From assembly GCF_004375085.3 (NCBI RefSeq), contig NZ_SNAQ03000003.1, positions 186,001 through 250,000 on the forward strand: a stretch of DNA of 64,000 nt, given 5' to 3'. Source of the stretch: Lewinella sp. W8 (lineage in GTDB: Bacteria; Bacteroidota; Bacteroidia; Chitinophagales; Saprospiraceae). Positions 8,868 to 52,014 of the stretch are shown here, in pieces. A program made the position numbers and the translations under genes. The notes beneath the pieces are model-generated. The model made no database searches, had not been told where the DNA came from, and worked only from the letters and a program-made list of their open reading frames with translations. The number at the start of each line of letters is the position of its first letter. Position 1 is the stretch's first letter.

Positions 8868-8887
8868 GGCACCTGCGCTTTTGCGCC
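8868..8887 (+). repeat. Dispersed motif copy 1 (GCACCTGCGC-TTTT-GCGCC)
   Basis: GGCACCTGCGCTTTTGCGCC, intergenic, 32 bases after the stop of the fusion lipoprotein. It faces variant copy 2 at 8911-8928. Confidence 0.75.
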
Positions 8888-8910
8888 CTCCTGATCGGCT
8901 TCCTTCTGAT

Positions 8911-8928
8911 GGCGTGACCGCAGGTGCC
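8911..8928 (-). repeat. Dispersed motif copy 2 (variant)
   Basis: On the minus strand it reads GGCACCTGCGGTCACGCC. With copy 1 it forms a perfect 10-bp inverted repeat (GGCACCTGCG against CGCAGGTGCC, 41-base loop) that could fold at the 3' end of the upstream transcript. Confidence 0.6.
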
Positions 8929-8959
8929 GAGAATGACCCAGGACGGCCGTGGTCTTCAG

Positions 8960-10369: not shown

Positions 10370-10371
10370 GA

Positions 10372-10989: not shown

Positions 10990-11114
10990 GGAGTGGGCGC
11001 GGGGGTTCCCTAGAAGCGTCAGGTCCTGGCCCTGCACTACCAATGAAATAAAGAACCTGAAGGGTGGAGAGACCGTACGTAATCCACATCACAGGAAGGG
11101 GAGGTTCATGGCGG

Positions 11115-11122
11115 TAGTTTTG
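11115..11122 (+). promoter_or_regulatory. -7 promoter element (TAGTTTTG) of the peroxiredoxin gene
   Basis: Perfect TAnnTTTG match 36 bases upstream of the ATG. No good -33 TTG. Confidence 0.45.
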
Positions 11123-11158
11123 CACTTGAAAATGATTTCATCATACAATTCAAGTAAT

Positions 11159-11815: not shown

Positions 11816-11863
11816 TCGCCGCAATCACACTCCCCTCTACGGAGTGGAGCCAATAACAATCGT

Positions 11864-11912
11864 GTCCTGATCGGCGTGAGCCACCAGGTTCCGTGCCGAT
11901 CAGGACCTTTTT
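11864..11912 (+). terminator. Rho-independent terminator after the peroxiredoxin gene
   Basis: Perfect 12-bp stem GTCCTGATCGGC / GCCGATCAGGAC with a 19-base loop, followed directly by CTTTTT. Confidence 0.85.
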
Positions 11913-11919
11913 CCGGTGA

Positions 11920-11936
11920 CGTTGGGTATACCAACG
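11920..11936. promoter_or_regulatory. Palindrome upstream of the small rhodanese gene (possible operator)
   Basis: CGTTGG-GTATA-CCAACG, 34 bases before the rhodanese ATG and just after the terminator. A regulator site is inferred only from symmetry and position. Confidence 0.35.
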
Positions 11937-11970
11937 CACCTTTCATCAAGCCATTCAATCAACATTTATC

Positions 11971-12300: not shown

Positions 12301-12338
12301 GTGAAGAGGTGAATTTATCATTGAAGAAAGCTTTTTCG

Positions 12339-12371: not shown

Positions 12372-12402
12372 GGTGGTGGGGGTAAGATGATGCTGCTTCC
12401 CG

Positions 12403-16097: not shown

Positions 16098-16115
16098 GGC
16101 ACCTGCGGTGACGCC
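16098..16115 (+). repeat. Dispersed motif copy 3 (variant)
   Basis: GGCACCTGCGGTGACGCC, intergenic, 22 bases before the rhaI ATG. One base differs from copy 2. A weak inverted match (GGCGGGCGGGTGCC) lies about 75 bases upstream. Confidence 0.5.
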
Positions 16116-21477: not shown

Positions 21478-21497
21478 GGGCCCGGGGGGCAGGTGCC
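21478..21497 (-). repeat. Dispersed motif copy 4 (degenerate)
   Basis: Minus strand GGCACCTGCCCCCCGGGCCC. Intergenic between the permease and the convergent T9SS gene. Only the first half matches the consensus. Confidence 0.35.
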
Positions 21498-24057: not shown

Positions 24058-24354
24058 GATTTGTGCTTTGTAATGTCCTGCTAATTTCTTGATGGTTAGA
24101 TGTTTAAGTGGCAATTGACTCTGCATGGCACCTGCGCGCCAGCGCCCGGTTTATTGTCACCATCGATACCTGAAAATGACAGGGGGTCAACGTCATCTGA
24201 ACCGAAGGTAAGTGGAATCTTCCTGCCCGGAAACAGGATACTACAGGACGCTAATGCGCCCCGGTTACCGGTTCCTTTATTAGCAGAATTCAGCAAAACT
24301 CACCTTTGCTCTTCTTTGATTTTTACTCACTACGTGTTAAACGAAATCACGATC
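24058..24354. other. Divergent intergenic region between sulfatase and SusC genes
   Basis: 297 bases with motif copy 5 and presumably both promoters. CACCTTTG at 24301-24308 is one base off the TAnnTTTG consensus and could be the SusC -7 element. No small gene is supported. Confidence 0.4.
24127..24146 (+). repeat. Dispersed motif copy 5 (GCACCTGCGC-GCCA-GCGCC)
   Basis: GGCACCTGCGCGCCAGCGCC, intergenic between the divergent sulfatase and SusC genes. Confidence 0.75.
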
Positions 24355-27300: not shown

Positions 27301-27525
27301 ATCAGCAACATTACGTTGAGCTATGATTTCCGGGAGTTGCTTAAACGGCAAAATTTGCTCAAAACCCTCACGGTATCCCTTGGGGTCCAGAACGCCCTCA
27401 TCCTGAGTGAATTCCAGGGTAACCCCGAGGTGAAACGTCAGGGTAATCCCTTTGAGCGAAACATCGCCTACAGTTCTTACCCCATCACCCGGACCTTCAC
27501 CTTCGGGCTTAAGACGAGTTTGTAG
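24355..27525 (+). CDS. susC: SusC/RagA-family TonB-dependent outer-membrane transporter
   Basis: 1056 aa from the ATG at 24355 (MQKVIPISVALFMC), which starts a signal peptide ending FAQ; the open frame further upstream is not coding. A carboxypeptidase-regulatory-like domain (about 25-100), TonB box DEVVVIAYG (about 103-111) and plug domain (about 115-240, with LLIRGIGTTGNNAPLIVVDG and the SusC signature ASGKALYGARAGNG) precede the beta barrel, which ends in the aromatic-rich TRTFTFGLKTSL. It imports oligosaccharides bound by its SusD partner, encoded next. It opens the operon SusC-SusD-T9SS protein, beside a sulfatase, a rhamnosidase-like enzyme and the rhamnose operon. Confidence 0.95.
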   Translation: MQKVIPISVALFMCLLSATGFAQRVITGNVTDTDREALIGVSIYVDGNTTIGTVSDLDGNYELTVPEGAKRLAFSYTGYKRKVVTLGNRTRLNVVMEPDTEILDEVVVIAYGEEKKADVIGATDNITSRQLENLPVPSFDQALAGQIPGLQVRTGSGRPDAGSELLIRGIGTTGNNAPLIVVDGVPYGTYNNSEQDNFLSLFNPNDIESISVVRDASGKALYGARAGNGLILITTKKGRAGKPQINVNTYTGVSSIMEREKPDILTAAELAQFQRERIEDAAAAAGNEPVIPDNLQNPESYGRGTDWYDLITQDAAAFNLDLSIRGGTEKTKYNISAGYFNTEGVIKTTGLERYTLRANLDSDITDWLRIGMMLAPSMTVNESGNTDPTQGQFQAYHVLQVARWADPSAPAFDENGNLTETTKGDLLPFFQANPLYKLQNQKNLSVNRQIQSQVTLTAKFLKHFTFTQKAAANLIFNRGRTFTPGSVVGAGLTPANTNPPSNSGVNTRRREELRLLSESILRFNRTFGKHKVEVLAGYNAEYYQLDRFSIGNNFLINEDFQLFNTNNVWLINPEDLQNPTIEDPINRYYINGNEEVRQRALIGIIGRVRYDFDDRYAITGSVRRDASSRFSPDRRNAIFPAIGLGWRASNEPWFPKSGIINNLRFELSVGQTGSQQVDESFYQGQVGRNDYVFGGQNAVGFQVNRLPNAQLQWETIKQIDFGVDIGLFNDRMDIEATVYRARNTDLLFGNPQPQVSGFGVQISNRGEIKNEGIELSIGGTPIRKSDFVLQFKVNGAVNRNEIVQIGTANAPIFLTPGGNGVRVSRTFVGGPVGQYYGLQLLGLYTPEMIADPEVPKYSGATVGSPFYLDGDGDGRLEVGEDYVFLGNPLPDLTYGFSTFVTYKDWKLRINANGELGGLIYDLRREIELNTDGVFNMRREVLNRYRFGSEDYSLRAPTTTTAASSQRYRTPTSAGVVSGDFLRISNITLSYDFRELLKRQNLLKTLTVSLGVQNALILSEFQGNPEVKRQGNPFERNIAYSSYPITRTFTFGLKTSL

Positions 27526-33940: not shown

Positions 33941-36151
33941 ATGCGTTTTTTGCTTTACTTAATCCTCGTCGGTTACTTGCTATCCTGCTCGGTGGGGGAG
34001 CAAATCACTCGGGAACCCAATACCCCTTCGGCGCAGTGGATCACGGTGCCAGCATTTCGGGACAGTTCCCTGGCCAACAGCTGGCTAGTCTTCGAGAAAA
34101 ACTTTGATTGGTCGGGCGCCGACGCGCAGGTGCCCGGTAATCGGTCGGAGCAGCGGAGGCCCGTGATGGCGCAAATTGCCGCAGATTCAAAATACTGGCT
34201 CTGGGTGAACGACTCCCTGGTCATTCGGGAAGGAGGACTGAAGTGGGGGCCGGTGCCGGGAGGGTATTACGTGGATTCAGTGGACCTCAGCGAGCACCTC
34301 CGACCGGGACGAAACCGCGTGTCCGTCCTGGTGTGGTACTTTGGCAAAGACGGCTTTTCTCACCAGAACAGTGGCCGGGCCGGGTTATGGTTTCAAGCCC
34401 CACGGTTAGGGCTCGTATCGGATACCTCCTGGATGGCGGGGCTTCACGAGGCCTTCTCAAGAAATTCGGGGCCTCCCTACCCAAACTACCGTTTGCCCGA
34501 GTCCAACGTGGCCTTTTCGGCCCAAAACGCCAGTCCGCTGTATCGGGCAGATCAAACCCTCTACGGCTATGCGGGAGACCTGAAGCCGGCCATCAGCTTT
34601 TCCCGCGACGGCCGGGCCGTCGCACGGCCCATCCCCCAGTGGAAAGATTTTGGCCTCCAGGCTTACGCCAACGCGCCGACCTTCCCCTTCACCAGTGACG
34701 GCACTCCGCTGGAGCTCCAGCTTCCCTACAACGCTCAGGTAACGGCCATGATGACCATTACTCCTCCGGCGAATGCTGCGGTGGATACCCTTGACGTGCG
34801 CACGGACAATTACCGGGGGGGTGGCCCGCCCAACGTCCGCACTATTTACTTGCCCAGACCCGGCATTAAGCAGACTTTTGAAAGTCCCGGATGGTTTAAC
34901 GGCCACCACGTGATCTACACCATTCCGGCCGGTACGGTCGTACACGATCTGCGGTTCCGGGAAACGGGTTACGCCACCGAATTTACCGGGGCCTTTTCCG
35001 CCGACGATCCCTTCTACAACCGCTTGTGGGACAAGGCTCGCCGAACGCTTTACGTAACCATGCGGGATAATTACATGGATTGCCCCGACCGCGAACGGGC
35101 CCAGTGGTGGGGTGACGTCGTGCTGGAAAGCGGCGAAACCTTCTACGCCCTGGACCGGAGCAGCGATGCCCTGACCCGAAAGGCCATCCGAGAACTCATG
35201 GACTGGCAGCGGCCGGACAGCACCATCTACAGTCCGGTGCCGGCGGGCAACTGGGACGGCGAATTGCCCACCCAGATGTTGGCCAGCGTGGGCCTCTTCG
35301 GCATCTGGAATTATTACCAGCATACCGGTGATGCCGACCTGATCCGGGAGGTATACCCCGCCGTGAAGCGCTATTTGGCCATCTGGCAGCAGGACGAGAC
35401 GGGACTCGTCGTACCCCGCAAGGGAGGCTGGACCTGGGGTGACTGGGGAGACAACAAGGACATGCCCCTGATCTTTAACGGTTGGTATTACCTGGCCCTG
35501 CGGGGCCTGGAGGATATGGCCCAGCTGGTGGGCGATCAGGAAACCCACACCCAAAGCCTTGCCAAAATGAAACGACTGAAAAAGGCCTTCAACGAGCAGT
35601 TTTGGACCGGCGAGGCCTACCGGAGCCCGGCCCACCAGGGCCCGCCGGACGACCGGGGAGCTTCCCTGGCGGTGGTAGCGGGGATCGCTCCGAAGGAGTA
35701 TTTCCCGGCTCTGAGGCGAGTGTTTGCCGAGCAGCGCCACGCCAGCCCCTACTTTGAGAAGTACGTCGAGGAAGCCCTCTTTCAGATGGGGTATCCCGAA
35801 GATGCCCTTACGCGCATGAAGGAACGATTCGGGCCGATGGTCAATGGCCCCGGAACTACTCTGTGGGAAGGCTGGGAGATCGGCTCGGCGAAGTACGGCG
35901 GCGGTACCGATAACCACGCCTGGAGTGGGGGAGGACTGACCCTGCTGTCTCAGTACGTCGCCGGAGTTGCTCCTCTGGAACCGGGATATCGTCGGGTGCG
36001 GATACGCCCACAACTCGGACCGTTGCAACGAGTGGAAGCTACCGTAGATACACCACTTGGGCTCCTACGAGTAGAGGTACAGCGGAAGGGGGAAGAACTA
36101 CTGATCGAATACGACGCTCCGAAAGGGATGGCGGTGGAGGTAGTAGAGTAG
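33941..36151 (+). CDS. Alpha-L-rhamnosidase-like glycoside hydrolase (GH78-type) lipoprotein
   Basis: 736 aa from the ATG at 33941 (MRFLLYLILVGYLLSCSVGEQ), a lipoprotein signal with lipobox LLSC. An N-terminal beta-sandwich (about 60-330; DSKYWLWVNDSLVIREGG) is followed by an (alpha/alpha)6 barrel with the GH78-type acid motif DCPDRERAQWWGD at residues 380-392, GWTWGDWGDNKDMPL, and a C-terminal beta domain (GYRRVRIRPQLG; VEATVDTPLGLLRV). The family cleaves terminal alpha-L-rhamnose. The motif departs from the textbook DCPQRDER, so a related specificity is possible. It ends 70 bases before the GH43-like gene. Its product would feed the rhamnose operon upstream. Confidence 0.85.
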   Translation: MRFLLYLILVGYLLSCSVGEQITREPNTPSAQWITVPAFRDSSLANSWLVFEKNFDWSGADAQVPGNRSEQRRPVMAQIAADSKYWLWVNDSLVIREGGLKWGPVPGGYYVDSVDLSEHLRPGRNRVSVLVWYFGKDGFSHQNSGRAGLWFQAPRLGLVSDTSWMAGLHEAFSRNSGPPYPNYRLPESNVAFSAQNASPLYRADQTLYGYAGDLKPAISFSRDGRAVARPIPQWKDFGLQAYANAPTFPFTSDGTPLELQLPYNAQVTAMMTITPPANAAVDTLDVRTDNYRGGGPPNVRTIYLPRPGIKQTFESPGWFNGHHVIYTIPAGTVVHDLRFRETGYATEFTGAFSADDPFYNRLWDKARRTLYVTMRDNYMDCPDRERAQWWGDVVLESGETFYALDRSSDALTRKAIRELMDWQRPDSTIYSPVPAGNWDGELPTQMLASVGLFGIWNYYQHTGDADLIREVYPAVKRYLAIWQQDETGLVVPRKGGWTWGDWGDNKDMPLIFNGWYYLALRGLEDMAQLVGDQETHTQSLAKMKRLKKAFNEQFWTGEAYRSPAHQGPPDDRGASLAVVAGIAPKEYFPALRRVFAEQRHASPYFEKYVEEALFQMGYPEDALTRMKERFGPMVNGPGTTLWEGWEIGSAKYGGGTDNHAWSGGGLTLLSQYVAGVAPLEPGYRRVRIRPQLGPLQRVEATVDTPLGLLRVEVQRKGEELLIEYDAPKGMAVEVVE
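34115..34134 (-). repeat. Dispersed motif copy 7 (GCACCTGCGC-GTCG-GCGCC)
   Basis: Minus strand GGCACCTGCGCGTCGGCGCC, inside the rhamnosidase-like gene (plus-strand peptide GADAQVP). Confidence 0.7.
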
Positions 36152-36221: not shown

Positions 36222-37673
36222 ATGATCCGAACCTTCACTCTGCTCTTTGCTGCACTCCTTGGCACCTGCGCGCTGGCGCCCTCCTGTTCCTCCGGCGAAG
36301 CCACCCAGGGCCCACCGGAAGCGGGTAAAACCGTGACCATCTCCAACCTGGAGCCCCGCCGGACCACCGACGGAAACATCGTCGATGCCCACGATGGTAG
36401 GGTGATCGAATTTGGGGGGACTTACTACTGGTACGGCACCCAGTACGGGAAGACGAATGGCTTCACCAAGGCCAATGAATACCACGTGTACCGCAGTGAC
36501 GACCTGGTGACCTGGGAGCACCTGGGACCGGCGCTGATTGACCCTCCTTCGGGGGTGTATTACCGGCCGCACGTGATTTTTCACGAGGCCAGCGGACAGT
36601 ACGTTTTCTGGTACAACTGGTATCCGGAACTCTGGGATGGACACTTTGGCGTAGCTGTTTCGGATTCGCCCGGCGGACCGTTCACCATCCAGAACCCCGA
36701 CGTCAAGGTGGCGCACTCCGAGCTGGGGGTGGGGGATTTCGGTCTGTTCGTCGACGACGACCAGACGGCCTACATCAGCTACAATACCATCCAGGGGCAC
36801 CGGGTATCCGTAGAAAAGCTTAATCCGGATTATACCTCTTCCAGTCTGGAGAACGGCGGCTACATTGCCCAGTACTGTGAGGCGGGCTCCATGTTTAAGC
36901 GCAAGGATATTTATTATTTACTCACCGACTACACCTGTTGTTTTTGCAACCAGGGAGCCGGGGCCCGCGTGTACGTGGCCGACGATCCCCTGGGGGAATG
37001 GACCCTGACGAATAACATCAACCGCCTTCCCGGCCGGCGGGCCCACAAGCTTACGGACGGCACGTATTTCACCACCGACTACACCGCTCTGAACCGGATC
37101 GATTCTACCTTTGAATCCCTGATCCTGGATGTTCCCGATGAGGGAGACCGACTGACGCTCCATCACTTCACCGGGGACCGTTCGGGGCAGTGTGGACAGG
37201 TAGACAACCCCCAGGTCCATCAGCTCATTGAGCTACCGGGCTTCAGCGTGGAGTTCTACGACCACGGTTGGCGGCCCGCCGGGGAGCTGGCCCCGGAGGT
37301 GACCCAAAAGAATATGCTGCAGGTGCTGGAGTTTGACGTTTCATCACTCGCCGGAAAGCGGATCCGGATGCGACCCCGGTCGGACTTTCCGTACGCCGTG
37401 CGGCTCACGGAAATTATTGGAAGTGAAGGGGAGATTTATGTTTCCAATGACCGTCCCGGCCCCGTCATCATTCCCGCCCAGCAGACTTACGTGATGTCGC
37501 TGCAAACGGAGGGGAAGACCGAATTTATCTGGATGGGGGACCTGTGGGGCTCGGCGTCCGATAACGTGAAGGGCCACGATTTTCAGTACTGGAGCAGTCC
37601 CCTGCAGTTTGATTCGCTGGGTTGGATTGCTCCGCTGTCGTTGGAGGAGGAATGGCGGACAACTTTGCCATAA
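36222..37673 (+). CDS. GH43-like glycoside hydrolase lipoprotein
   Basis: 483 aa from the ATG at 36222 (MIRTFTLLFAALLGTCALAPS). The signal is of lipoprotein type, with LLGTC or APSC as possible lipobox. A five-bladed propeller of GH43 type follows: the base D55 in DAHDG with YYWYGTQYG, the pKa modulator in GDFGLFVDDDQTAYISY, and the acid E220 in YCEAGSMFKR. The C-terminal 130 residues form a beta-sandwich-like region. GH43 enzymes release xylose, arabinose or galactose from side chains. It is cotranscribed with the rhamnosidase-like gene. Dispersed motif copy 8 lies inside its signal-peptide codons. Exact subfamily uncertain. Confidence 0.8.
   Translation: MIRTFTLLFAALLGTCALAPSCSSGEATQGPPEAGKTVTISNLEPRRTTDGNIVDAHDGRVIEFGGTYYWYGTQYGKTNGFTKANEYHVYRSDDLVTWEHLGPALIDPPSGVYYRPHVIFHEASGQYVFWYNWYPELWDGHFGVAVSDSPGGPFTIQNPDVKVAHSELGVGDFGLFVDDDQTAYISYNTIQGHRVSVEKLNPDYTSSSLENGGYIAQYCEAGSMFKRKDIYYLLTDYTCCFCNQGAGARVYVADDPLGEWTLTNNINRLPGRRAHKLTDGTYFTTDYTALNRIDSTFESLILDVPDEGDRLTLHHFTGDRSGQCGQVDNPQVHQLIELPGFSVEFYDHGWRPAGELAPEVTQKNMLQVLEFDVSSLAGKRIRMRPRSDFPYAVRLTEIIGSEGEIYVSNDRPGPVIIPAQQTYVMSLQTEGKTEFIWMGDLWGSASDNVKGHDFQYWSSPLQFDSLGWIAPLSLEEEWRTTLP
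36261..36280 (+). repeat. Dispersed motif copy 8 (GCACCTGCGC-GCTG-GCGCC)
   Basis: GGCACCTGCGCGCTGGCGCC encodes GTCALAP in the signal peptide of the GH43-like protein. Confidence 0.75.
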
Positions 37674-37739: not shown

Positions 37740-39641
37740 TTACCCCTTCTCCGGGGCCTGGCTACGGGGAAACAACAGGAACGTCCAGGGGCGAACACTA
37801 ATTTCCAGTAATAGGCGGCCCAGCAGGCTAAAGGTTCTGCCGAAAGTGATGCTGCGGGAGCGCAGGGCGATGTAGAGGGTGATGCCGAAGCTGACGACGA
37901 AGTTGGTTGCTCCGATGATGAGGATACTCAGGGATGCGAGCAGCAGGGTAGGGAGGGTAAGATCGATGGTGGCCAGGGCAAAGCCAAAGTTGGCCGAGCT
38001 GAAGGCAATATGTCGGATGTCAATGGGCAGGCCAGTGAGGTAGCCCAGGTAGCCGGCCATGCCGAGGAAGAAACCCAGGCTGACGTTGCCACTCAAGCCT
38101 CCCAGGTTTTTACAGAGGTAGGCCGCAAAATTTTTCCGGGTCTCTTCGGGAAGCAGCCACCGTAGGAGCGGGTGGTGATTGAGTCGGGTTTCCATTTCAC
38201 TGGCCACCACTTTGTTGTCGAGGTAGCCGGAGATCAGGCCAGCGAAGGCCAGGAAAACGCCGGCGATGGCCGCGAATCCTAGTCCGTTTCCGGCGAAGGG
38301 CCAGAGGTCGTGGACCAATTTTTCTGCCTTTTCCGTAGTGACAAAACTGATGCCGTTGACGTAGAAGGATGCCCTGGCAATCAGGACCGCCAGCGGAAGT
38401 GCCGCGAAGATATTACCCACAAAAGAGATAAACTGACTCCGACTGGCCTGTTTGATCAAAGAAACAATTTCTTCGATTGCGCCCAATTTCAGGTCATTAT
38501 TCTGATCAATTTTTTTGATGATCGTCGAGGCGACCATGGCGGGCTGCTTGGTGGCAATGGTGCCCCCAAAGACTTTGACCAGCACGAAACACATGGCGTA
38601 ATTGATGCTGAAGAGCAGCGATTGTGGTAGCTTATCCGTGGGTAACTCGTACAGGCCAACCTTTACTGCCGCGAAAATGGCAATCAGCAAGCCCCCCAAA
38701 AGGCTACCCCGTAACATGCCATAATATTCGGACCGATTCTCCGCAATGTACTTCTCGCCGGAACGGGCCGTACGCTTTACAATTTCTAACGCCAGCAGGT
38801 CCAGGTTTTCGTTAATGAAGCGACCGATGTGCATCCGGTGAACTTCCCCGCCCGCAGCCGTTTCAAATACCCGCAGCCAGTTACTTTTTTCATTGGGCGC
38901 GGCGCGCAGGTGCAGGAGCTCTTCGAGAATGGCCAGGCTATCCAGTGCCTTTTTGCTTTCGAAGGTGAGCTTGAGCGTGGTGCCGATCTCGTTCTTCCGC
39001 AGCCGCAAGCTGATGATGTTGGCCCGTACGGCCTTCAGTAGCCGAAATATACTTTCGGTATCCTCCGGGGGCGCTGGATCCGAGACCACTTCCTGAAGCC
39101 GGGCAAACGGCCGGGTGTCTAGGTCGAGCCGCCGGAAGAGCTGCCGCACCCGGTGGTCCAGTCCGAAACCACCAATCTTCACCCCAAGCGACTGAATGGA
39201 TAAATTCAGTTGCTCCTCCACCCGTCGGGTATCCAGTTGCACCTGGTCCGGGCCAAAAAGCCGGTCAAGACCGTCCGCGGGCAGCTGTCTGATCCAGGGG
39301 AGGTCCTCCTTTAGCCGGAATACCGTCAGTAAGAAGTGCTGGATGTCCGTTTCGGGAGGAACCCGGGGAATCACCCGGTTCTTAATCCGCGCCCAGATTC
39401 CGAGGAGGAAGCTACTCTGGTCCAGGAAGGAGTACTGGGTGAAAAAGGAGAAAAAGTCGTAGTGCTGCAGGACGTAATTCATCCACTTCAGCAGCCCTTC
39501 CCGAAATTTCGGTTCGGTCTTCAGGGCCTGTTCCAGCTCCAGGAAGACGCCGTCAATTTTACCCGTTTCCCGGTAATTATTGCGGAATATATCCACCAAT
39601 TCAGTCATTACCTCCAGGCGGCCGGGAGGTGCATCGGACAT
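37740..39641 (-). CDS. Gcr/SpecificRecomb-family membrane protein, function unknown
   Basis: 633 aa from the ATG at 39641 (MSDAPPGRLEVMTELVDIFRN), with AAAGGA 11 bases upstream; a TTG 33 bases earlier is less likely. The N-terminal 330 residues are soluble and helical. The C-terminal 300 hold about six to eight membrane helices with SINYAMCFVLVKVFGGTIAT and KQPAMVAS, the hallmark of proteins named after the gonococcal gcr gene and often labelled site-specific recombinase. No recombinase catalytic motif is visible and the topology is that of an integral membrane protein, so the recombinase name should not be taken as function. It is convergent with the GH43-like gene and divergent from the membrane regulator. 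Confidence 0.75.
   Translation of the reverse strand: MSDAPPGRLEVMTELVDIFRNNYRETGKIDGVFLELEQALKTEPKFREGLLKWMNYVLQHYDFFSFFTQYSFLDQSSFLLGIWARIKNRVIPRVPPETDIQHFLLTVFRLKEDLPWIRQLPADGLDRLFGPDQVQLDTRRVEEQLNLSIQSLGVKIGGFGLDHRVRQLFRRLDLDTRPFARLQEVVSDPAPPEDTESIFRLLKAVRANIISLRLRKNEIGTTLKLTFESKKALDSLAILEELLHLRAAPNEKSNWLRVFETAAGGEVHRMHIGRFINENLDLLALEIVKRTARSGEKYIAENRSEYYGMLRGSLLGGLLIAIFAAVKVGLYELPTDKLPQSLLFSINYAMCFVLVKVFGGTIATKQPAMVASTIIKKIDQNNDLKLGAIEEIVSLIKQASRSQFISFVGNIFAALPLAVLIARASFYVNGISFVTTEKAEKLVHDLWPFAGNGLGFAAIAGVFLAFAGLISGYLDNKVVASEMETRLNHHPLLRWLLPEETRKNFAAYLCKNLGGLSGNVSLGFFLGMAGYLGYLTGLPIDIRHIAFSSANFGFALATIDLTLPTLLLASLSILIIGATNFVVSFGITLYIALRSRSITFGRTFSLLGRLLLEISVRPWTFLLFPRSQAPEKG
38896..38914 (-). 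repeat. Dispersed motif copy 9 (GCACCTGCGC-GCC-GCGCC)
   Basis: Minus strand TGCACCTGCGCGCCGCGCC, inside the Gcr-type gene, where it encodes LHLRAAP. Confidence 0.7.
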
Positions 39642-42783: not shown

Positions 42784-44670
42784 ATGGATCGCTACGAAAA
42801 AGTATTCTTTCCGGTATTCCTGTTGTTATTCTCGGCCGCGCTGTGGTCTCAACCAGCGGCGGTAACCGGGGTGTCGGCCACGGCCTACGATCACCACATC
42901 GAGGTTTTTTGGAATCCATCCCCTAATCCCTCGGTCAATAATGTGCGCATATTCGGCTCCCATGACGGAGGCCCCTTTGAATTACTGGGCAGCGTCAATA
43001 ACGTCACGGGAAATTACGTGGACTTCGTGGGCGACTTCAACGTCAAGGGGCGCTACTTCATCCGGGCCATAGGCTCGGGCGGACAGTTGGGAGAACCTTC
43101 GGATACCGTATCGGCCACCACTTTCGAAATGACCGATTCCATGTTGTTGGACATGGTGCAGGCCTATACCTTCCGCTATTTCTACGACTTTGGCCACCCC
43201 ACCTCCGGCATGGCCCGGGAACGCAATACCACCGCTACCGTTACCACGGGGGGAAGTGGATTTGGTGTCATGGCCCTCATCGTCGGGGCGGAGCGAGGGT
43301 TTATCACCTACGAGCAGGCGCTGGATCGGACGACGAAAATTGTGAATTTCCTCGGGACGGTTCCTCGCTTTCGGGGAGCTTTTTCTCACTGGATGAACGG
43401 CACTACCGGGGCGGTAATTCCCTTCAGTGCGCTCGATGACGGTGGGGACCTGGTCGAGACGGCTTTTCTCATCCAGGGCTTACTTACGGCCCGGGTGTAT
43501 TATTCCGGGGATAGTCCCGAAGAAATCGCCTTGCGGGAAAACATCACCGAATTATGGGAGGGCGTCGACTGGAGTTGGTACCGCAGAAATAACGAAGATT
43601 TACTCTACTGGCACTGGTCTCCTCAGCATGAGTTTGCCATCAGTTTACCGGTGCGTGGTTTTAACGAAACGCACATCATCTACCTGCTGGCGTTGGGAGC
43701 ACCCAACCCCGACTACGCCATTCCGCCCTCGCTTTACCACACCGGCTGGGCGGGAGGTGCCTACGAAAACTCCCTGAGCTATTACGGCATCCCACTACTG
43801 CTGGGACGCGGGAAGGGAGGCCCGCTTTTCTTTACGCACTACAGCTACCTGGGCTTTGATCCGCGCGGAAAGCGCGATCAGTATGCCAACTACTTTGAGG
43901 TGGGCCGTAACCACAGCCTGATCGATTACGAGCACTGCATCGATAATCCCTACAACCACGAAGGCTACGGTCCGGAATGTTGGGGGCTGACGGCCAGTGA
44001 TGACCCCGATGGCTACCTGGCCCACGCTCCGGATAACCGGAGCACGGACAACGGCACCATTACGCCCACCGCGGCCCTGAGCAGTATGCCCTACACCCCC
44101 GAAGAGAGCATGGCTGCCCTGAAGCACTTTTACCGGGAGATGGGCGATCAGCTCTGGGGTCCCTACGGCTTCTACGATGCCTTCAACGAAAGCCGGAACT
44201 GGTACGCCCGCAGCTACCTGGCCATCGACCAGGGACCGATCATCTGTATGATCGAAAATCACCGGAGCGGATTGCTCTGGGATTTGTTCATGCAAAATCC
44301 GGAGGTGGACGTGATGCTGGAGGCCGCCGGATTCGTGGCGGACACCACGCCCGTCAGCGTACCGGAACTGCCCGGATTCCTGGCCGCCGCGCCCCGGGTT
44401 TTCCCCAATCCCGCCAGCGACGTGACTACTCTGGAACTGCAGTTGGCGCAGTCGGCGACGGTGAGTGTGGAGCTGCTTTCGCTCGATGGCCGTAGCGTCC
44501 ATCAGCTCCAGTCGGCTACCCGGTTCAACCCCGGCCTTAACCAAATAAGTTTGCACCTGCGCTCCGGCGCCCAGCGTACTAACACAGGGCTTCCGGGGGG
44601 ATATTACCTGCTAAAAATTAACGGCCCGGGTGGCGTGACCACCCTGCCAATTTTGCTCGATGAACGATGA
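42784..44670 (+). CDS. Glycoamylase-fold glycoside hydrolase (GH144-like) with Fn3 domain and T9SS tail
   Basis: 628 aa from the ATG at 42784 (MDRYEKVFFPVFLLLFSAAL), a signal peptide; a TTG 18 bases earlier is possible. An Fn3 domain (about 25-110; VEVFWNPSPNPSVNNVRIF-like) precedes an (alpha/alpha)6 catalytic domain (about 120-520) with TFRYFYDFGHPTSGMARERN, GGSGFGVMALIVGAERGF, WHWSPQHEF, NPYNHEGYGPECWGLTASDD and YGFYDAFNESRNWYARSYL (each abbreviated). This pattern belongs to Pfam Glycoamylase, whose studied members include GH144 endo-beta-1,2-glucanases. A T9SS tail (VFPNPASDVTTLELQL; LPGGYYLLKI) follows. It shares its fold with the lipoprotein at 47398. The substrate is inferred to be a beta-glucan. 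Confidence 0.85.
   Translation: MDRYEKVFFPVFLLLFSAALWSQPAAVTGVSATAYDHHIEVFWNPSPNPSVNNVRIFGSHDGGPFELLGSVNNVTGNYVDFVGDFNVKGRYFIRAIGSGGQLGEPSDTVSATTFEMTDSMLLDMVQAYTFRYFYDFGHPTSGMARERNTTATVTTGGSGFGVMALIVGAERGFITYEQALDRTTKIVNFLGTVPRFRGAFSHWMNGTTGAVIPFSALDDGGDLVETAFLIQGLLTARVYYSGDSPEEIALRENITELWEGVDWSWYRRNNEDLLYWHWSPQHEFAISLPVRGFNETHIIYLLALGAPNPDYAIPPSLYHTGWAGGAYENSLSYYGIPLLLGRGKGGPLFFTHYSYLGFDPRGKRDQYANYFEVGRNHSLIDYEHCIDNPYNHEGYGPECWGLTASDDPDGYLAHAPDNRSTDNGTITPTAALSSMPYTPEESMAALKHFYREMGDQLWGPYGFYDAFNESRNWYARSYLAIDQGPIICMIENHRSGLLWDLFMQNPEVDVMLEAAGFVADTTPVSVPELPGFLAAAPRVFPNPASDVTTLELQLAQSATVSVELLSLDGRSVHQLQSATRFNPGLNQISLHLRSGAQRTNTGLPGGYYLLKINGPGGVTTLPILLDER
44552..44571 (+). repeat. Dispersed motif copy 10 (GCACCTGCGC-TCCG-GCGCC)
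   Basis: TGCACCTGCGCTCCGGCGCC, inside the T9SS tail of the glycoamylase-fold protein, encoding LHLRSGA. Confidence 0.75.
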
Positions 44671-44703: not shown

Positions 44704-47391
44704 ATGCAAAGAGTTTTACTTCTACTACTGGCCGCCTTTTGCTGCGGCACCCTAACGGCCCAGGTCCTGCTGGAGGACTTTGAGGGAAACATGGCCGATC
44801 TGCCGTGGAACGCCATTGAGGGATCTTTTGAGATCGTGGCCAACCCCGACGATACCACCAGCAACCCAAGTGCCTTTGTGGGCTCCTACACCAAGCAGGG
44901 CGACCGGGCCTTTAGCCTCTTCCTGGCGGAGGTGGCAACCCCGCTTGACCTGAGCGTCAACAACCAGTTTTCTATCCAAATCAATGCCGGAGCCGCCACC
45001 CAGCTGCTGCTGAAACTGGAAGGCACCGGAGAGGCCATTGAGCGGACCGTCAATATCCCCGTGGCGAACCAGTGGCGCACCTACAACTTTGATTTCAGCG
45101 CTGCCGCCGGCTTTACGACCATCAATAAAATCATCCTGTTCTTCGACCCCGGAGTGGAGACGAGTACGGATACTTACCTGTTCGATAACCTCATCGCCAG
45201 CCCGGCGGGGGTCTGTGCCGGTACCGTTCCCGATCCCACGATTTTGGACGACTTTGAGTGCCAGCGCAATGCTTCCTACAGCGTAGGTTTCTCCGACATT
45301 GAGGTGATCGCGAACCCGGACATGGACGGCAACCCCAGCGATTCCGTCGGGCAATACACCGACCGCGACGGAGCTTTCTACCCCCTCATCATCGACTACA
45401 ACGGTACCGTCGATCTTTCCGTCAATAACCAGCTTTGTCTCAAGGTGTGGACGGAAGTAGCCGGCAACCTACTCATGAAACTGGAAGGTGGTGTATCTGC
45501 TCCCTTTGAGGTGCCCGTAGCCCTGGATGGCTCCGGAAGCTGGGTGGAAGTCTGCGCCGATTTCAGCAGCCAGTCGGCCGCCAATCACGGACAAATCGTA
45601 CTCTTTTTCAATGCCGGGGTAGACGCCGCCGCGGGCGACATCTACTACATCGACGATCTCAGCCTGACGCCCGCACCACCGGCCGAGGCCCTGGAAGACT
45701 TTGAAGACGGCGCCAACCTGGCGTGGATGCCTCTGAACGGTGACAACACCCTGCACGGCACCTTTACCGGTCCGATCGCGAACCCCGACATGACGGGTAA
45801 TGAATCCGACAATATCGGTCAGTACGTTCGGGGTAACTCGAGCTTCTCCACTCTGACGGCCACCCTGCTGGAGGGCATTGACCTGAGCACCAACCCGCAG
45901 TTGAACCTCGACGTCTGGGCTCCGGACGGCGCTACGTCGGTAACCATGCAGCTGGTCAGTCCCATCGACGGTGCCCGCAGCGTCGAGGCGGATATTCCGG
46001 CCACAATGAGCTGGCAGACCCTGAACTTTAACTTTGAAGAGTTTTCCGGCGTAACCGACTTCGATCAGATCAACCTCCTCTTTGATCCCGAAACCAGCGG
46101 TAACGGCACCTACTTCTTCGACAACCTGATTCAGGGAGAAAGTACCGTGGACCCCTGTGCCGACGTGGTCGCCGACCCCGACATCATTGATGACTTTGAG
46201 TGCCAGCGGAACGCTAACTACACGATCGGCACCATCACGGCGGTGGATAACCCCGACGTTTCCGCGGGTAACCCCAGTACGCGGGTAGGGGAGTTCGTCG
46301 ATCCTCCCGGAGCCTTCAACGTGCTGTTGATTTCCTTCGACGAGCCCCTGGACCTGAGCGTAAAGAACCGTCTGCAGGCGAAAATCTGGTCACCCGTCGC
46401 CGGGCAGATTTTGTTCAAACTGGAGCAGGGAACCGGTCCGGATACCGAAGTCTTTGTGGACATCCCCGCCACCAACGAGTGGGTGGACTATGAGGTCGAC
46501 TTCAGCGCGGTGGCCGACGGTGGTTACCAGGCGTTGGGCATTTTCTTCGGCGCGGGAACCGATAACCCCGAAAACAATACCTACTACGTTGACGACCTGC
46601 AGTTCGCCCGGGCTCCCTACACCAGCGACTGCGTGGTGACCTTTGAATCCGAAGATCTGACGCTGAGTTCCTGGCGCTACTTTGCCAACGGTGCCTTCGA
46701 GGGCAACGAGTTCATCATTTCCGATAACCCGAACGTCAGTGACGGCAACCCCAGTGCCAAGGTGGGTACCTTCGAGGAGGCGTCCGACGGACTGGAATTT
46801 GCCGGTATGTTCGCCGATCCCGACGCACCGATCATCCTGCCCGTGGATAACAAGATTGTGACCATGAAGGTCCTCATGGACGTGGCCGGGGAGATCGTCC
46901 TGAAGTTGGAGGGTGGCCCCGATGAGGCTCCCCAATCCGGAGACGTTTTTGCCACCTACGACACGCCGGGGGAATGGCAGGAGTTGACCTTTGACATGAG
47001 TGTGCTGCCGGATAATGCGGCCTACACCCGCATCACCCTCATCCCGAACTTCGGGGTGATTCCGATGGAGAACCTGACGCATTACTTCGACGACATCGCC
47101 GTGGGCGGTGGTAACTGTGCCTCGACGAGCATCTTCAATCCCGTGAGCATCAACTCCCTGCGGGTGTACCCGAACCCCGTGAGTGAGCTGCTGACCATCG
47201 AGAATAACGACGGTGCGGTGTTTTTTGAACTGACGAACATGCTGGGCCAGCGCGTCAAGCATTTGAGCGTGAATCGGGCGCAAGCGCAGGTGCAGTGGCC
47301 ACTCGAAGGCATTGCCCGGGGAACGTACGTGCTGACCGCCCGTGACGCCAACGGTATTCCGGTAGCCCGCACCATGATCATCCGCGAATAG
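44704..47391 (+). CDS. Five-repeat carbohydrate-binding-like T9SS protein
   Basis: 895 aa with signal peptide (ending LTAQ). Five repeats of about 150 residues, each opening with a phrase like LLEDFEGN, ILDDFECQRN, ALEDFEDG, IIDDFECQRN or VTFESEDL and continuing with IANPDxxxNPS, LDLSVNNQ, LLKLEG and YYxDDL. Repeats 2 and 4 both carry DDFECQRN, suggesting internal duplication. The fold is probably a beta-sandwich resembling carbohydrate-binding modules. A T9SS tail (RVYPNPVSELLTIEN; ELTNMLGQRVKHL) ends the protein. No catalytic domain is seen. It lies between two glycoamylase-fold genes, 33 bases after one and 6 bases before the next. A surface glycan-binding protein of the locus is inferred. 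Confidence 0.82.
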   Translation: MQRVLLLLLAAFCCGTLTAQVLLEDFEGNMADLPWNAIEGSFEIVANPDDTTSNPSAFVGSYTKQGDRAFSLFLAEVATPLDLSVNNQFSIQINAGAATQLLLKLEGTGEAIERTVNIPVANQWRTYNFDFSAAAGFTTINKIILFFDPGVETSTDTYLFDNLIASPAGVCAGTVPDPTILDDFECQRNASYSVGFSDIEVIANPDMDGNPSDSVGQYTDRDGAFYPLIIDYNGTVDLSVNNQLCLKVWTEVAGNLLMKLEGGVSAPFEVPVALDGSGSWVEVCADFSSQSAANHGQIVLFFNAGVDAAAGDIYYIDDLSLTPAPPAEALEDFEDGANLAWMPLNGDNTLHGTFTGPIANPDMTGNESDNIGQYVRGNSSFSTLTATLLEGIDLSTNPQLNLDVWAPDGATSVTMQLVSPIDGARSVEADIPATMSWQTLNFNFEEFSGVTDFDQINLLFDPETSGNGTYFFDNLIQGESTVDPCADVVADPDIIDDFECQRNANYTIGTITAVDNPDVSAGNPSTRVGEFVDPPGAFNVLLISFDEPLDLSVKNRLQAKIWSPVAGQILFKLEQGTGPDTEVFVDIPATNEWVDYEVDFSAVADGGYQALGIFFGAGTDNPENNTYYVDDLQFARAPYTSDCVVTFESEDLTLSSWRYFANGAFEGNEFIISDNPNVSDGNPSAKVGTFEEASDGLEFAGMFADPDAPIILPVDNKIVTMKVLMDVAGEIVLKLEGGPDEAPQSGDVFATYDTPGEWQELTFDMSVLPDNAAYTRITLIPNFGVIPMENLTHYFDDIAVGGGNCASTSIFNPVSINSLRVYPNPVSELLTIENNDGAVFFELTNMLGQRVKHLSVNRAQAQVQWPLEGIARGTYVLTARDANGIPVARTMIIRE
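47277..47294 (-). repeat. Dispersed motif copy 11 (GCACCTGCGC-TT-GCGCC)
   Basis: Minus strand TGCACCTGCGCTTGCGCC, inside the T9SS tail of the five-repeat protein (plus-strand peptide AQAQVQ). Confidence 0.7.
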
Positions 47392-48801: not shown

Positions 48802-49020
48802 CGCAGGCAAACATCCGAATTTCCCGGCCAGGGTAGGGGAGCGGGCTGCTGACCTGGCTGGCCCACCGCTGGTCCTTGGGGGGAATGACCTCCCTCGCTG
48901 ACCATTACTTTAATTCGTCGCGCTTTTCGTTGCTTTCCGAAGGCCGGCGATCACGAAAACTTATCGGGGTTTTCCGGGCCGAGGAGTCCGTGACCATTAC
49001 CCCTCAATAAACTCCTGAAT
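48802..49020. other. Intergenic region upstream of the second SusC gene
   Basis: 219 bases with the phrase GTGACCATTAC / GACCATTACTTT repeated about 80 bases apart. Presumably holds the susC promoter, but no clear TAnnTTTG element is seen. Confidence 0.35.
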
Positions 49021-52014
49021 ATGAGCTTACGAACGCTATTTTTCTTTGCCCTGCTGGGGGGACTTTGCACCTGCGCTCGCGCCCAAACGGTCGTCACCGG
49101 AACCGTGACGGGAGACGGAGACCCCCTCATTGGCGTTACCGTGCAGGCCGTGAATTCCACCACCGGAACGGTGACGGACCTGGACGGAAGGTATTCCCTG
49201 ACCGTTCCCGCGGGCAGTGACAGCATCCGTTTTTCTTATCTCGGATTCTCGCCCCAGACGCTGGCCATTGGCAACCGCAATCGGATTGACGTTGATCTGG
49301 CCGAGGCCTCCGCAGTGCTCAGCGAGGTGGTCGTGATTGGTTACGGCGTGCAGCAGAAGGAAGACCTGACCGGCGCCGTGGCGGTAATTTCCAACGAGGA
49401 CATCGTTGACATTCCCACCCAGTCCCTGGGGCAATCCCTGCAGGGTAAGGTTGCGGGGCTGCAGATTATTCCCGGCTCTGGTGCTCCCGGCGCGGACGCG
49501 ATCTTCCGTATCCGCGGCGTGGGTACCCTCAACAACGCCGATCCGCTCTTCGTCGTGGACGGGATGATCCTTAACGATATTTCCTTCATCAATCCGCAGG
49601 ACGTGGAAAGTGTCTCGGTGCTCAAGGATGCCTCGGCGACGGCGATTTACGGCGCGCGGGGAGCCAACGGGGTCATCATTGTGACGACGAAGCAGGGCGC
49701 GGACGCAGGTACCGGGCGGGTGACCGTAGGAGCCTACACCGGGGTACAGGAAGTGGTGCGCACCATCAATCTGGCCAACGCCACCCAGTACGCTACCCTC
49801 ATCAACGAAGCGGACGCCAACGAAGGCCGGACGCCCCGATACGCCAACCCCGAGCAATTCGGTGAAGGAACGGACTGGCAGGACGCGGTCTTCCAGCCCG
49901 CTAACATTCAGAACATCCAGGTCGGTTTCGCGGCCGGTAACGACCGATCGTCCATCAACGTGAGCACCAACTTCTTCCGGCAGGAAGGTATCATTCAGGG
50001 GTCCGATTTTGAGCGCTTCACCACGCGGGTGAACACTACGCGATCCATCAAGAACTGGCTGAAAATCGGCACCAACCTCAGTTTGATTCTGGGGAGTTTG
50101 GATAACGTCAACGCCGGAGGCATTTTGCTGAACGCCTACCGGTCGGATCCCATTACCGAGCCAATCGATAGCCTGGGGAATTTCGGGAATACGGCCATCC
50201 GCGGTAACACGGGCAACCCCCTGGCCACCATTGCATTCGCCAATAACCGCAGTCAGGATTACCGTGCGGTCGGCAACGCCTTCCTGCAGGCTACCCTGGC
50301 GGAGGGGCTAAGCTTCCGGACGAGCTTCGGGCTGGACTTCAACTACGCCCGAAACCGAAACTTCACGCCGGTATTCTTCGTCTCGGCCAGTCAGCAGAAC
50401 CAAATCAGCAACATCAGCGTATTCAACGCCTACCGACGGAACTGGCTTTGGGAGAACACCCTGAACTACAACCGCAAGGTCGGGGAACACAATTTTGACG
50501 CCCTGGTGGGGATAACCTCCCAGGACAACTTCGGTGAATTTCTTTCCGGGGCCCGTCAGGATCTGATCGGAGAGGACGAAAGCCTGCGGTACCTGAACGC
50601 CGGCGATCTGACCACGGCGACGAACAGCAACGGTACCTTCGGCGGTAACTGGGGCCTGGTGTCCTACCTCGGACGCATCAACTACACCTACGGCGGGCGT
50701 TACCTGGTGACCTTGTCCGGACGGATTGATGGTTCTTCCCGCTTCGGCGCCAACAATCGCTACGGCTTTTTCCCTTCCGTGGGGCTGGGCTGGAACGTAA
50801 GCCAGGAAGATTTCTGGAACGACGGCGGCGTCATCAGCCGCCTGAAGCTTCGGGCCAGCTGGGGGCAGACCGGCAACGACCGGATCGGGGACTTCGGCTT
50901 TACGCCACTGGTGAACAGCGGCATCAATGCCGTTTTCGGCGTGGATGAAGTCCTGTTGCCGGGAGCGACCCTGACGACGTTGGCTAACCCTGACCTGCGC
51001 TGGGAATCAACTACCCAGACGGACTTTGGCGTCGAAATCGGGCTCTGGGACAACCGGCTGCAGCTGGAGGCGGACGTATACCGCAAGGTGACTAGTGGCG
51101 TGCTCTTCAACGCGCCGATTCCCAACTACATTGGTGCCGGTGCCGCGGTGCGCAACATCGCCGAGGTGCTCAACGAAGGGGTTGACCTGCGGATTGAGTG
51201 GCGGGAAACCCGGGGCAAACTGAGTTATTCCATCGGGGGTAACCTCAGCCTGGTGCGCAACGAAGTACTGAGACTCGACGGTGAGCAGAGCGACTTCTTT
51301 GCCGGAGGCCTTGGGGTCGGCGGACAGCTGGGAACGAACTCCCGGGCCGGCTTTACGGCCGGCTCCTTCTGGGGCTACGAACTGGACGGAGTGTTCCAGA
51401 ACCAGGAAGAAGTGGATCAGTTTCCCACCCTGGGTACCCAGCGGCCGGGCGATCTCCGCTTCCGCGATCAGAACGGTGACGGGGTCATCACCCCCGACGG
51501 AGACCGGGTGGTGCTGGGCAACGCCATCCCGGACGCCATTCTGGGGCTGAACGGTTCGGTTAATTATGCGGGCTTCGACCTCACCTTCGACTTCACGGGG
51601 CAGTTTGGCAACCAGATCGTCAACGCCAAGAAGATGTCGCGTTTCGGGGCCTACAATTACGAAACCAGCTTCCTGGACCGCTGGAACGGTGAAGGGACCA
51701 GTAATGCCGAACCCCGCGTCACGCTGGCCGGACAAAATATTGAAACCCTGTCCTCTCGCTTCGTGGAGGATGGTTCTTACGTCCGGCTGCGCAACGTTAC
51801 GCTGGGATACCGTATTCCAGCGCACCTTGTCCGGAAACTGCGCCTGGAATCCTTCCGTTTGTACGTGAGCGGGACGAACTTGTGGACCTCTCAGGAATAC
51901 TCGGGCTACAATCCCGAAATTTTCAACGGCTCGGTGTTCGACAACGGCATTGATCGCGGAAATATCTACCCGATCTCCAGCATCCTCACCTTTGGTTTAG
52001 ATCTTCAATTTTAG
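49021..52014 (+). CDS. susC: SusC/RagA-family TonB-dependent outer-membrane transporter
   Basis: 997 aa. Signal peptide (LCTCARAQ), carboxypeptidase-regulatory-like domain (about 22-95; VTGTVTGDGDPLIGVTVQAV), TonB box SEVVVIGYGVQQ (about 101-112), plug domain (about 113-235) with IRGVGTLNNADPLFVVDG and the canonical SusC signature SVLKDASATAIYGARGANGV, then a beta barrel ending TFGLDLQF with a terminal aromatic residue. It imports glycan fragments through the outer membrane with the SusD encoded just downstream. Dispersed motif copy 12 lies in its signal-peptide codons and a degenerate copy lies at 49696. The neighbouring GH144-like enzymes suggest a beta-glucan substrate. Confidence 0.96.
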   Translation: MSLRTLFFFALLGGLCTCARAQTVVTGTVTGDGDPLIGVTVQAVNSTTGTVTDLDGRYSLTVPAGSDSIRFSYLGFSPQTLAIGNRNRIDVDLAEASAVLSEVVVIGYGVQQKEDLTGAVAVISNEDIVDIPTQSLGQSLQGKVAGLQIIPGSGAPGADAIFRIRGVGTLNNADPLFVVDGMILNDISFINPQDVESVSVLKDASATAIYGARGANGVIIVTTKQGADAGTGRVTVGAYTGVQEVVRTINLANATQYATLINEADANEGRTPRYANPEQFGEGTDWQDAVFQPANIQNIQVGFAAGNDRSSINVSTNFFRQEGIIQGSDFERFTTRVNTTRSIKNWLKIGTNLSLILGSLDNVNAGGILLNAYRSDPITEPIDSLGNFGNTAIRGNTGNPLATIAFANNRSQDYRAVGNAFLQATLAEGLSFRTSFGLDFNYARNRNFTPVFFVSASQQNQISNISVFNAYRRNWLWENTLNYNRKVGEHNFDALVGITSQDNFGEFLSGARQDLIGEDESLRYLNAGDLTTATNSNGTFGGNWGLVSYLGRINYTYGGRYLVTLSGRIDGSSRFGANNRYGFFPSVGLGWNVSQEDFWNDGGVISRLKLRASWGQTGNDRIGDFGFTPLVNSGINAVFGVDEVLLPGATLTTLANPDLRWESTTQTDFGVEIGLWDNRLQLEADVYRKVTSGVLFNAPIPNYIGAGAAVRNIAEVLNEGVDLRIEWRETRGKLSYSIGGNLSLVRNEVLRLDGEQSDFFAGGLGVGGQLGTNSRAGFTAGSFWGYELDGVFQNQEEVDQFPTLGTQRPGDLRFRDQNGDGVITPDGDRVVLGNAIPDAILGLNGSVNYAGFDLTFDFTGQFGNQIVNAKKMSRFGAYNYETSFLDRWNGEGTSNAEPRVTLAGQNIETLSSRFVEDGSYVRLRNVTLGYRIPAHLVRKLRLESFRLYVSGTNLWTSQEYSGYNPEIFNGSVFDNGIDRGNIYPISSILTFGLDLQF
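49066..49083 (+). repeat. Dispersed motif copy 12 (GCACCTGCGC-TC-GCGCC)
   Basis: TGCACCTGCGCTCGCGCC encodes CTCARA at the signal-peptide end of the second SusC. Confidence 0.75.
49696..49713 (-). repeat. Dispersed motif copy 13 (variant)
   Basis: Minus strand GGTACCTGCGTCCGCGCC, two changes from consensus, inside susC. Confidence 0.35.

Follow-up and report, generated by a model that had tools for sequence, protein, structure and literature searches.

The window analyzed here is a stretch of 64,000 nucleotides from Lewinella sp. W8 that carries thirteen copies of a short, oriented motif, two of them graded as probable. Each copy consists of a recognition word followed by a small loop. The site at 8869..8887 on the plus strand (loop CTTTTG) is intergenic by our gene calls, and 23 bp past it, on the opposite strand, lies a site with the exact core GCACCTGCG (8911..8927, minus strand, loop GTCA). 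The same core occurs at 16099..16115 (plus strand, loop GTGA), which is also intergenic by our gene calls. The site at 24128..24146 (plus strand, loop CGCCAG) falls at the 5' end of the longest TonB-receptor-like ORF (24100-27525); it is intergenic if that ORF starts later. Three minus-strand sites are antisense within genes, at 29662..29678 (loop CCCG, in a gene with a Por secretion tail domain), 34115..34133 (loop CGTCGG) and 47277..47293 (loop CTTG), and two are sense within genes, at 38896..38913 (minus strand, loop CGCCG) and 44553..44571 (plus strand, loop CTCCGG). Two plus-strand sites encode pieces of signal-peptide-like starts: 36262..36280 (loop CGCTGG) codes part of one (LLGTCALAP) and 49067..49083 (loop CTCG) codes the end of another (CTCARAQ). 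The probable sites, both on the minus strand, are a compensated stem GCC..GGC at 21479..21496 (GCACCTGCC..GGC) and a one-base variant, GTACCTGCG, at 49696..49712 (loop TCCG). One-base variants of GCACCT with a GCG..CGC stem number 24 in 850 kb, compared with 5 at a control offset. The strand alternates in 11 of the 12 steps between these thirteen sites, and in 11 of 14 once two chance-like matches (1026 and 41430) are included. The window has no Rfam match at the gathering threshold.

The original prediction described a 9-mer, CACCTGCGC, present nine times where about one is expected, always preceded by G and followed by GCGCC after 2-4 bases. Each of these particulars held. The 9-mer occurs nine times against a shuffle mean of 0.48 and a maximum of 2 (100 shuffles); a G lies directly 5' of it in 9/9 copies, and GCGCC follows 2-4 bases on in 9/9, an arrangement seen in none of the 100 shuffles. 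The coordinates given were correct to within 2 bases, each being the low coordinate of a site on either strand. The four positions listed as variants turned out to be of different kinds: 8911 and 16098 carry the exact core, 21478 has a compensated stem, and 49696 is a one-base variant. In the whole genome (6.18 Mb) the strict form totals 220 copies and its reversed-pattern control 0, far above the background level that had been named beforehand as the outcome speaking against a real signal.

The strict form GCGC-N2-4-GCGCC covers just those sites whose loop has C as its first and G as its last base. The actual unit is GCACCTGCG-N4-6-CGCC, that is, a 6-base recognition word, GCACCT, a tiny stem-loop, GCG-loop-CGC, with a loop of 3-4 nt once closed, and a short tail. 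The family motif GCACCT-GCG-[4-6 nt]-CGCC has 709 copies in the genome of the window (G000), and the nine strict copies are members of a family that spans the genus at one copy per 4 to 13 thousand bases, as expected of the genome-wide signal originally proposed. In 850 kb of G000 the core GCACCTGCG is found 141 times against 12.7 expected, and in 122 cases CGC follows 4-6 nt later. Upstream of the word, a C stands at position -4 in 71-80% of sites in all site classes; positions -6 to -1 are not conserved between the genes of two other species, G017 and G004 (identity 0.54).

We considered whether features of genes could account for these copies. Codon usage in shared protein repeats, the other outcome named beforehand as adverse, did not emerge as the cause: in 850 kb the copies are spread over both strands, five reading frames (three of them sense, two antisense), unrelated genes and intergenic DNA. 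Sites do lie, in sense orientation, in or just before signal-peptide-like starts (LLGTCGxAQ) in 93 of 394 cases, and tandem intergenic sites are biased 76:42 (nine data sets). With signal-peptide-like starts set aside, the tandem intergenic sites number 43 same to 38 opposite (seven data sets) and the alternation of strands persists at 64:10 under 2 kb, which rejects a signal-peptide artefact. The same 43:38 division means that orientation relative to genes is not fixed, contrary to a terminator or promoter, and the upstream TTGCTCC box near -20 largely reflects the signal-peptide effect. Gaps between convergent genes hold 15 sites against 32 expected. Within genes, antisense sites are in excess (102:58); our guess is that amino-acid cost lies behind it.

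Orthologue alignments, proposed earlier as a way to tell insertion from point change, favor the latter. Because 18 of the 26 testable gene sites have a gap-free orthologue, the copies arise by base substitution and not by insertion; for 3 of the 26, every orthologue is missing at least 8 residues. Between G017 and G004, 32 of 39 sites could be aligned and 25 are kept, and the intergenic core has an identity of 0.84 versus 0.54-0.69 in the flanks. Sites outlast their flanks. The alaS site has its exact core also in G020, G009 and G012 and near forms in others, which is weak evidence because the residues NAGA favor the word through codon choice. None of the 19 other genomes aligned shares the gcvP site of G000. 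Site-specific recombination between sites was also considered and rejected, as the listed aligned blocks longer than 800 bp between G017 and G004 keep one orientation over about 200 kb, with no inversion seen at sites.

The mobile REP-like unit suggested by the original prediction is unsupported, since sites arise by substitution and, around the Y1/RAYT-like genes inspected, are about as dense as in the genome at large. REP/RAYT elements and CGTC palindromes do resemble the motif in combining a word with a hairpin, in their many copies and in lying partly within genes, according to the available portions of two sources (PMC3733652, PMC6006769); the motif differs from REP/RAYT in not being inserted, in its stem of 3-4 bp and in showing no clustering near the Y1 genes examined. 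A related reading is that sites are nicked or bound by a domesticated HUH (Y1, RAYT-like) protein, with REP-like logic and no transposition. Y1 enzymes recognize a short word on the 5' side of the foot of a hairpin, as the available text of PMC6006769 describes, which resembles the motif, and Y1 proteins are present in 20/21 genomes. However, no Y1 match was obtained in G018, whose fragmented assembly contains 925 sites, the 12 loci of 3.3 kb examined (L188-L199, one of them from G000) hold 10 dialect sites, about the genome density, and the sites originate by substitution. Two of the seven Y1 genes of G000 were also inspected, one having an exact copy 0.8 kb off and the other a variant 0.25 kb off. 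From these sequence comparisons, a domesticated HUH protein as the reader appears very unlikely.

The gap between the two arms behaves, in the sequences of the window's genome, as a hairpin loop. All six-base gaps (42/42) and all five-base gaps (24/24) of G000 have a closing pair (permutation p ≤ 0.0005), with C-G and G-C replacing one another. Complementary stems other than GCG number 42 in 850 kb of G000, where five control offsets average 24.8; this excess is clear in G000 and weak or absent in other species. Strong covariation is likewise confined to G000. The loops of other species are fixed or show none, with two exceptions among five-base gaps, G017 (11/18, p 0.03) and G004 (6/7, p 0.02). 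The dialect of G011 may rely on another pairing. Folding predictions give the hairpin no remarkable energy (z -2.2 to +1.1), and 2 of 6 sequences have their energy minimum in another structure.

Orientation proved to be the central property of the motif, as the earlier remark that it mostly alternates had anticipated. Neighbors less than 2 kb apart are opposite in 99 cases and the same in 12; beyond 8 kb the numbers are 47 and 49. Spacing on the same strand is one site per 7-12 kb with a CV of 0.52-0.77, and the cross-strand CV is 0.68-1.03. Each strand thus bears its own regular ladder and largely ignores the other strand, with cross-strand spacing not fully random, as opposite-strand neighbors closer than 1 kb are in excess (54 vs 36.8, summed over five species). 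The plus-strand shares within stretches of 200-600 kb are 45/96, 19/41, 60/110, 20/39 and 20/38. Strong replichore polarity is therefore disfavored, and with it the strongly polar form of the segregation signal once proposed, while weak polarity is compatible with these stretches, which are not placed relative to origin or terminus. Whole-genome strand totals are equal, but contig orientation is arbitrary and the totals are no test of polarity.

Two readings turn on this arrangement. Single-strand initiation or primosome-assembly hairpins (n'-pas/ssi-like) would start or restart replication on either strand; like the motif, they are small, strand-specific hairpins of single-stranded DNA, and the hairpin-like form, the strand-specific ladder and the presence in phages would all suit them. 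Lagging-strand use, however, predicts a replichore strand bias and the strands are nearly equal within the 200-600 kb stretches, and to our knowledge such hairpins occur singly on plasmids and phages, whereas the motif forms a genome-wide ladder. We consider this quite unlikely. Polar binding sites of a putative nucleoid or loop-forming protein, organizing the chromosome, would be in line with the even, orientation-dependent spacing and with conservation, but neither loop covariation nor presence in phages is predicted, and on sequence grounds we give such a role a very small chance.

All 21 Neolewinella genomes searched carry the motif or a dialect of it, with the words GC[A/T]CC[T/C], [T/C]TACCT and GCTACT. 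The family motif itself has 270 copies in G017 and 0-9 in 98 other genomes of the family that were searched. The form GCWCCYGCG occurs 438-1550 times per genome in 19 of the 21 (reversed control 1-25); G011 has 6 such copies versus 418 of its own dialect, and G001 has 23, with 12 own-dialect sites in the 120 kb read. Sites are also borne by a tailed-phage contig with terminase, head protease, endolysin and tail fiber genes, and in one phage two sites on the same strand are separated by 3.6 kb. Four viral scans gave 25, 62, 3 and 3 stretches with the motif, ten or so of the 62 being inspected; several of the viral matches look like chance in high-GC sequence. Among the best 80 of 111 matches in a wider contig scan many are from Streptomyces, probably chance in high-GC DNA. 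The idea that sites are absent from foreign DNA was dropped, as the largest gap (43 kb, C11:7217-50380) looks, by protein starts only, like ordinary chromosomal genes.

Copies by the hundred to more than a thousand, substitution origin and species dialects are shared with DNA uptake sequences (DUS/USS), and an uptake label, by which competent cells prefer tagged DNA and the bias spreads the site through the genome, has to be weighed. The competence of Riemerella is not known to depend on type IV pili. Neisseriaceae DUS, so far as the available part of PMC3630211 describes them, match the motif in density, in using both strands, in arising by substitution, in being in excess between genes and in having dialects; ComEC is found in 21/21 genomes, and natural competence is known in Bacteroidota from Riemerella (PMC8459023, in the portion available). 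The accessible text of PMC1939737 reports that H. influenzae takes up DNA independently of USS orientation, and also discusses some evenness of spacing for uptake sequences. Orientation-dependent spacing, though a measure of spacing and not of uptake, therefore argues against a classical uptake sequence. Drive by point mutation should moreover leave mismatched forms, as reported for uptake sequences in that same partial source, yet one-base variants are few: all 27 variants of the core pooled give 31 versus 21 at a control offset. Phage contigs bear sites, loop covariation is seen in one genome, and the matches to a pilus motor are unconvincing. The pilus/secretion ATPase family, searched with PF00437 (ATPase family only), matches in 20/21 genomes at E <= 0.001 (best 1.3e-5), with partial cover of the 370-position profile at 19-25 bits, 11 of the 21 just over the cut-off. 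An uptake label is thus unlikely on balance, a classical pilus-dependent one being the less likely form.

We favor, at a probability of about 0.4, an orientation-specific signal of self-DNA that is read on single-stranded DNA and is Chi-like in logic, the motif being a dispersed cis-acting signal of the genus Neolewinella with a putative function. Since the ladders on the two strands are each regular and largely independent of one another, a site would exert its effect on a single strand or in a single direction across several kb, and because the loop covaries, it would be read when its strand is single. An enzyme processing DNA ends or single strands, such as a helicase-nuclease of recombination or end resection or one of its partners, would then most likely alter its action at the site, and DNA with sites on both strands would be treated as self, repaired and not degraded, by analogy with Chi for RecBCD. 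Chi is orientation-specific and read on a single strand. Like Chi and Chi-like sequences of RecBCD and AddAB, the motif is dispersed and over-represented, the E. coli Chi lying at about one per 5 kb (PMC8022716, available text). The motif differs in its length of about 20 bases with a stem-loop, its lack of strong polarity and its even same-strand spacing. In 300 kb of E. coli, Chi has no hairpin and no even spacing, with same-strand CVs of 1.11 and 1.42 and 33/70 alternations. A helicase-motif search for AddA-like ORFs in the minor part of each genome that was read gave one unrelated-looking match. In searches of open-licence papers, neither a Chi or uptake sequence nor any similar genome-wide signal with this form was seen for Bacteroidota.

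More tentatively, the motif could be a genome address signal of a new class: hairpins recognized on single-stranded DNA and set out by selection in two nearly independent, evenly spaced ladders, one on each strand, with species dialects, with copies in phages of the host that would thereby pass as self, and with a dedicated putative reader (a nuclease-helicase, single-strand-binding or HUH protein) that tells own from foreign single strands. The dialects and phage copies make a search for the reader protein tractable. Same-strand exclusion, in turn, gives a way to approach orientation-specific signals by statistics alone, which may be tried with any genome. If the motif is a self mark, it bears on DNA repair, gene exchange and phage encounters of these marine bacteria.

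The nine strict copies of the original prediction (a 9-mer, then GCGCC after 2-4 bases) are genuine and well above chance. The same pattern occurred 220 times (102 + 118) in the whole genome of the window (G000; 6.18 Mb, 91 contigs), and its reversed control did not occur there at all. Among relatives it was present in 19 of 20 further same-genus genomes at 1-106 copies each (G001 had none), in one of four from other genera of the family (5 copies) and in 2 of 15 order relatives, with one copy each. To define the unit, we examined 850 kb of G000 (contigs C11:1-600000 and C33:1-250000). The 9-mer GCACCTGCG had 141 copies there, where a fourth-order Markov model predicts 12.7, and CGC followed after 4-6 nt in 122 of them. 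The 27 one-base core variants with CGC at 4-6 nt totaled 31, as compared with 21 at a control offset, mainly through an excess at the sixth base; the core is therefore nearly all-or-none. The predicted motif stands, but its form, GCGC-N2-4-GCGCC, describes the subset of sites whose loop starts with C and ends with G. All location classes shared preferences for C at -4 (71-80%), T/C at -2, T/G at -1 and, 3' of CGC, C followed by C/A.

Other dispersed words over-represented in the 850 kb were AACAGACTAACAGACTAAC-type repeats, AGAGCTTGTTTGGA/ACAAGCTCT and CCTAAATCCT-like stretches; in the window, AGAGCTTGTTTGG closely precedes the site at 8869. In two other genomes of the genus, the over-represented words were a palindrome around GATAGCTATC and TACCGCCTA repeats (G019 C1:1-140000) and a CTGGAGCTCCAG-like palindrome (G001 C45:1-120000).

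The signal is real, conserved and genus-wide, the genus being most likely Neolewinella. GCACCTGCG-N4-6-CGCC was present 709 times in G000, 270 times in G017 and 0-9 times in each of the other 98 family genomes searched. The pooled form GCWCCYGCG reached 438-1550 copies per genome in 19 of the 21 genus genomes, with reversed controls at 1-25. Species use dialects: GCACC[C/T/A]GCG in G019, GC[A/T]CC[T/C]GCG in G017 and G004, [T/C]TACCTGCG in G001 (12 sites in 120 kb) and GCTACTTTG in G011, where the form with CAAA occurred 418 times and in the others 0-4 times.

In the window's genome the gap length is tied to pairing. Counting C-G, G-C or, in shorter gaps, G.A as a closing pair, we found it in 42/42 six-base, 24/24 five-base and 31/56 four-base gaps, against permutation means of 29.6, 18.7 and 19.4; GCACCTGCA was followed by TGC in 13/27 cases and GCACCTGCC by GGC in 6/15. 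In other species, six-base gaps showed no covariation apart from the fixed closing base, four-base gaps nothing significant, and among five-base gaps only G017 (p 0.03) and G004 (p 0.02) leaned as G000 does. Predicted hairpin energies were ordinary, with an alternative fold in 2 of 6 examples. The hairpin is well supported in the window's genome and plausible in the remaining genomes.

Orientation follows a strand rule. Over all neighbours in nine data sets (the G017b and G004 sets being homologous, hence not independent; the G000 pattern also admitting a GCA..TGC stem, 137 sites), opposite and same orientations numbered 62:4 below 1 kb, 37:8 at 1-2 kb, 68:17 at 2-4 kb, 87:57 at 4-8 kb and 47:49 beyond 8 kb. 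The orientation test was prompted by the G002 listing, which alternates 67 of 91 times; shuffles gave p values of 0.0006 for G000 and G015, <0.0002 for G017, 0.002 for G007 and 0.07-0.39 for the other five sets. Same-strand distances below 2 kb were seen 15 times against about 89 expected (six species). Same-strand spacing had a CV of 0.52-0.77, and the cross-strand CV of 0.68-1.03 was far closer to random, with an excess below 1 kb (54 versus 36.8 expected). Close opposite pairs were mostly outward-facing (45 -+ versus 17 +-). The opposite:same ratio below 2 kb was 19:2 for intergenic sites alone, 21:3 for gene-internal sites alone and 64:10 without signal-peptide sites. Unlike this signal with its orientation-dependent spacing, Chi in 300 kb of E. 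coli displayed none of these features. The simplest meaning is that a second same-strand site within a few kb adds little and that a site on the other strand is no substitute; given such within-strand redundancy, the signal would therefore be read with orientation.

The 394 sites located in seven data sets from six species comprised 141 intergenic sites, 93 in signal-peptide-like starts and 160 within genes (102 antisense, 58 sense). Intergenic DNA makes up about 15% of the total, so the intergenic excess is over two-fold. Convergent gaps were poor in sites (15 versus 32 expected), and intergenic tandem orientation was 43:38. In the window, such starts are encoded by the motif at 36222-37673 (LLGTCALAP) and 49021-52014 (CTCARAQ); here a signal in the DNA moulds the sequences that sort proteins.

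With 110 gene-internal sites as queries, partial data yielded a spanning orthologue for 26, of which 18 had at least one gap-free orthologue and 3 had every orthologue short by at least 8 residues. At the gcvP site, residues were replaced with length unchanged relative to 19 other species. Between insertion and point change, the gap-free orthologues and gcvP point to substitution. Over about 200 kb of G017 and G004 (identity 0.79 in genes, 0.72 between), 32 of 39 sites aligned and 25 of the 32 were kept, dialect exchanges counted as kept; a rough control with other GC-rich 9-mers, of which full identity was demanded, kept 5 of 29. Core identity was 0.84 against 0.54-0.69 in the flanks between genes and 0.94 against 0.71-0.82 within them. 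The gap-free orthologues and this persistence therefore indicate that sites arise by substitution and are then retained. A mobile REP-like unit, as the original prediction had offered, does not agree with such an origin.

Candidate readers of the signal include ComEC, the pilus/secretion ATPase family, HUH Y1 proteins and AddAB/RecBCD. ComEC is encoded in 21/21 genus genomes, in which the pilus/secretion ATPase family gave only partial marginal matches. HUH Y1 proteins occur in 20/21; the site-rich G017 had weak Y1 matches only (best 1.8e-6). A Y...Q..HH signature in 11 of 12 Y1/HUH proteins (L188-L199, the best ones of 12 genomes) resembles that of subclass 1.2 in PMC6006769. We do not class the signal as DUS, Chi or REP because each has at least one defining feature that was tested and found absent; for DUS the role of orientation was judged indirectly, from spacing, and for Chi polarity was judged within stretches of 200-600 kb, so that a weak one is possible. 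In its logic the signal is most like Chi; its function and reader are inferred.

Phages carry the signal as well. GCACCTGCGTCCGCGCC was present in 25 stretches of a viral collection, a sample picked for carrying sites and hence giving no density. Nine of the 25 form one group of about 96% identity, 5 of which have two outward-facing sites separated by 3.2-4.0 kb, and the diverged contigs L339 and L346 have the outward arrangement too. Two pieces of a 38.7-kb contig, covering 22 kb, had six dialect matches, one with a doubtful loop; among the six are two same-strand sites 3.6 kb apart. L337, L340, L348, L351 and L391 belong to a tailed-phage group in IMG/VR; of 10 ORFs scanned in L340, 4 could be assigned a role, as terminase, head protease, endolysin and tail fibre. 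Judged by the shared signal, this group may infect Neolewinella-like hosts. The phage copies are better explained by a cis-acting role from which any DNA inside the host would benefit than by uptake alone.
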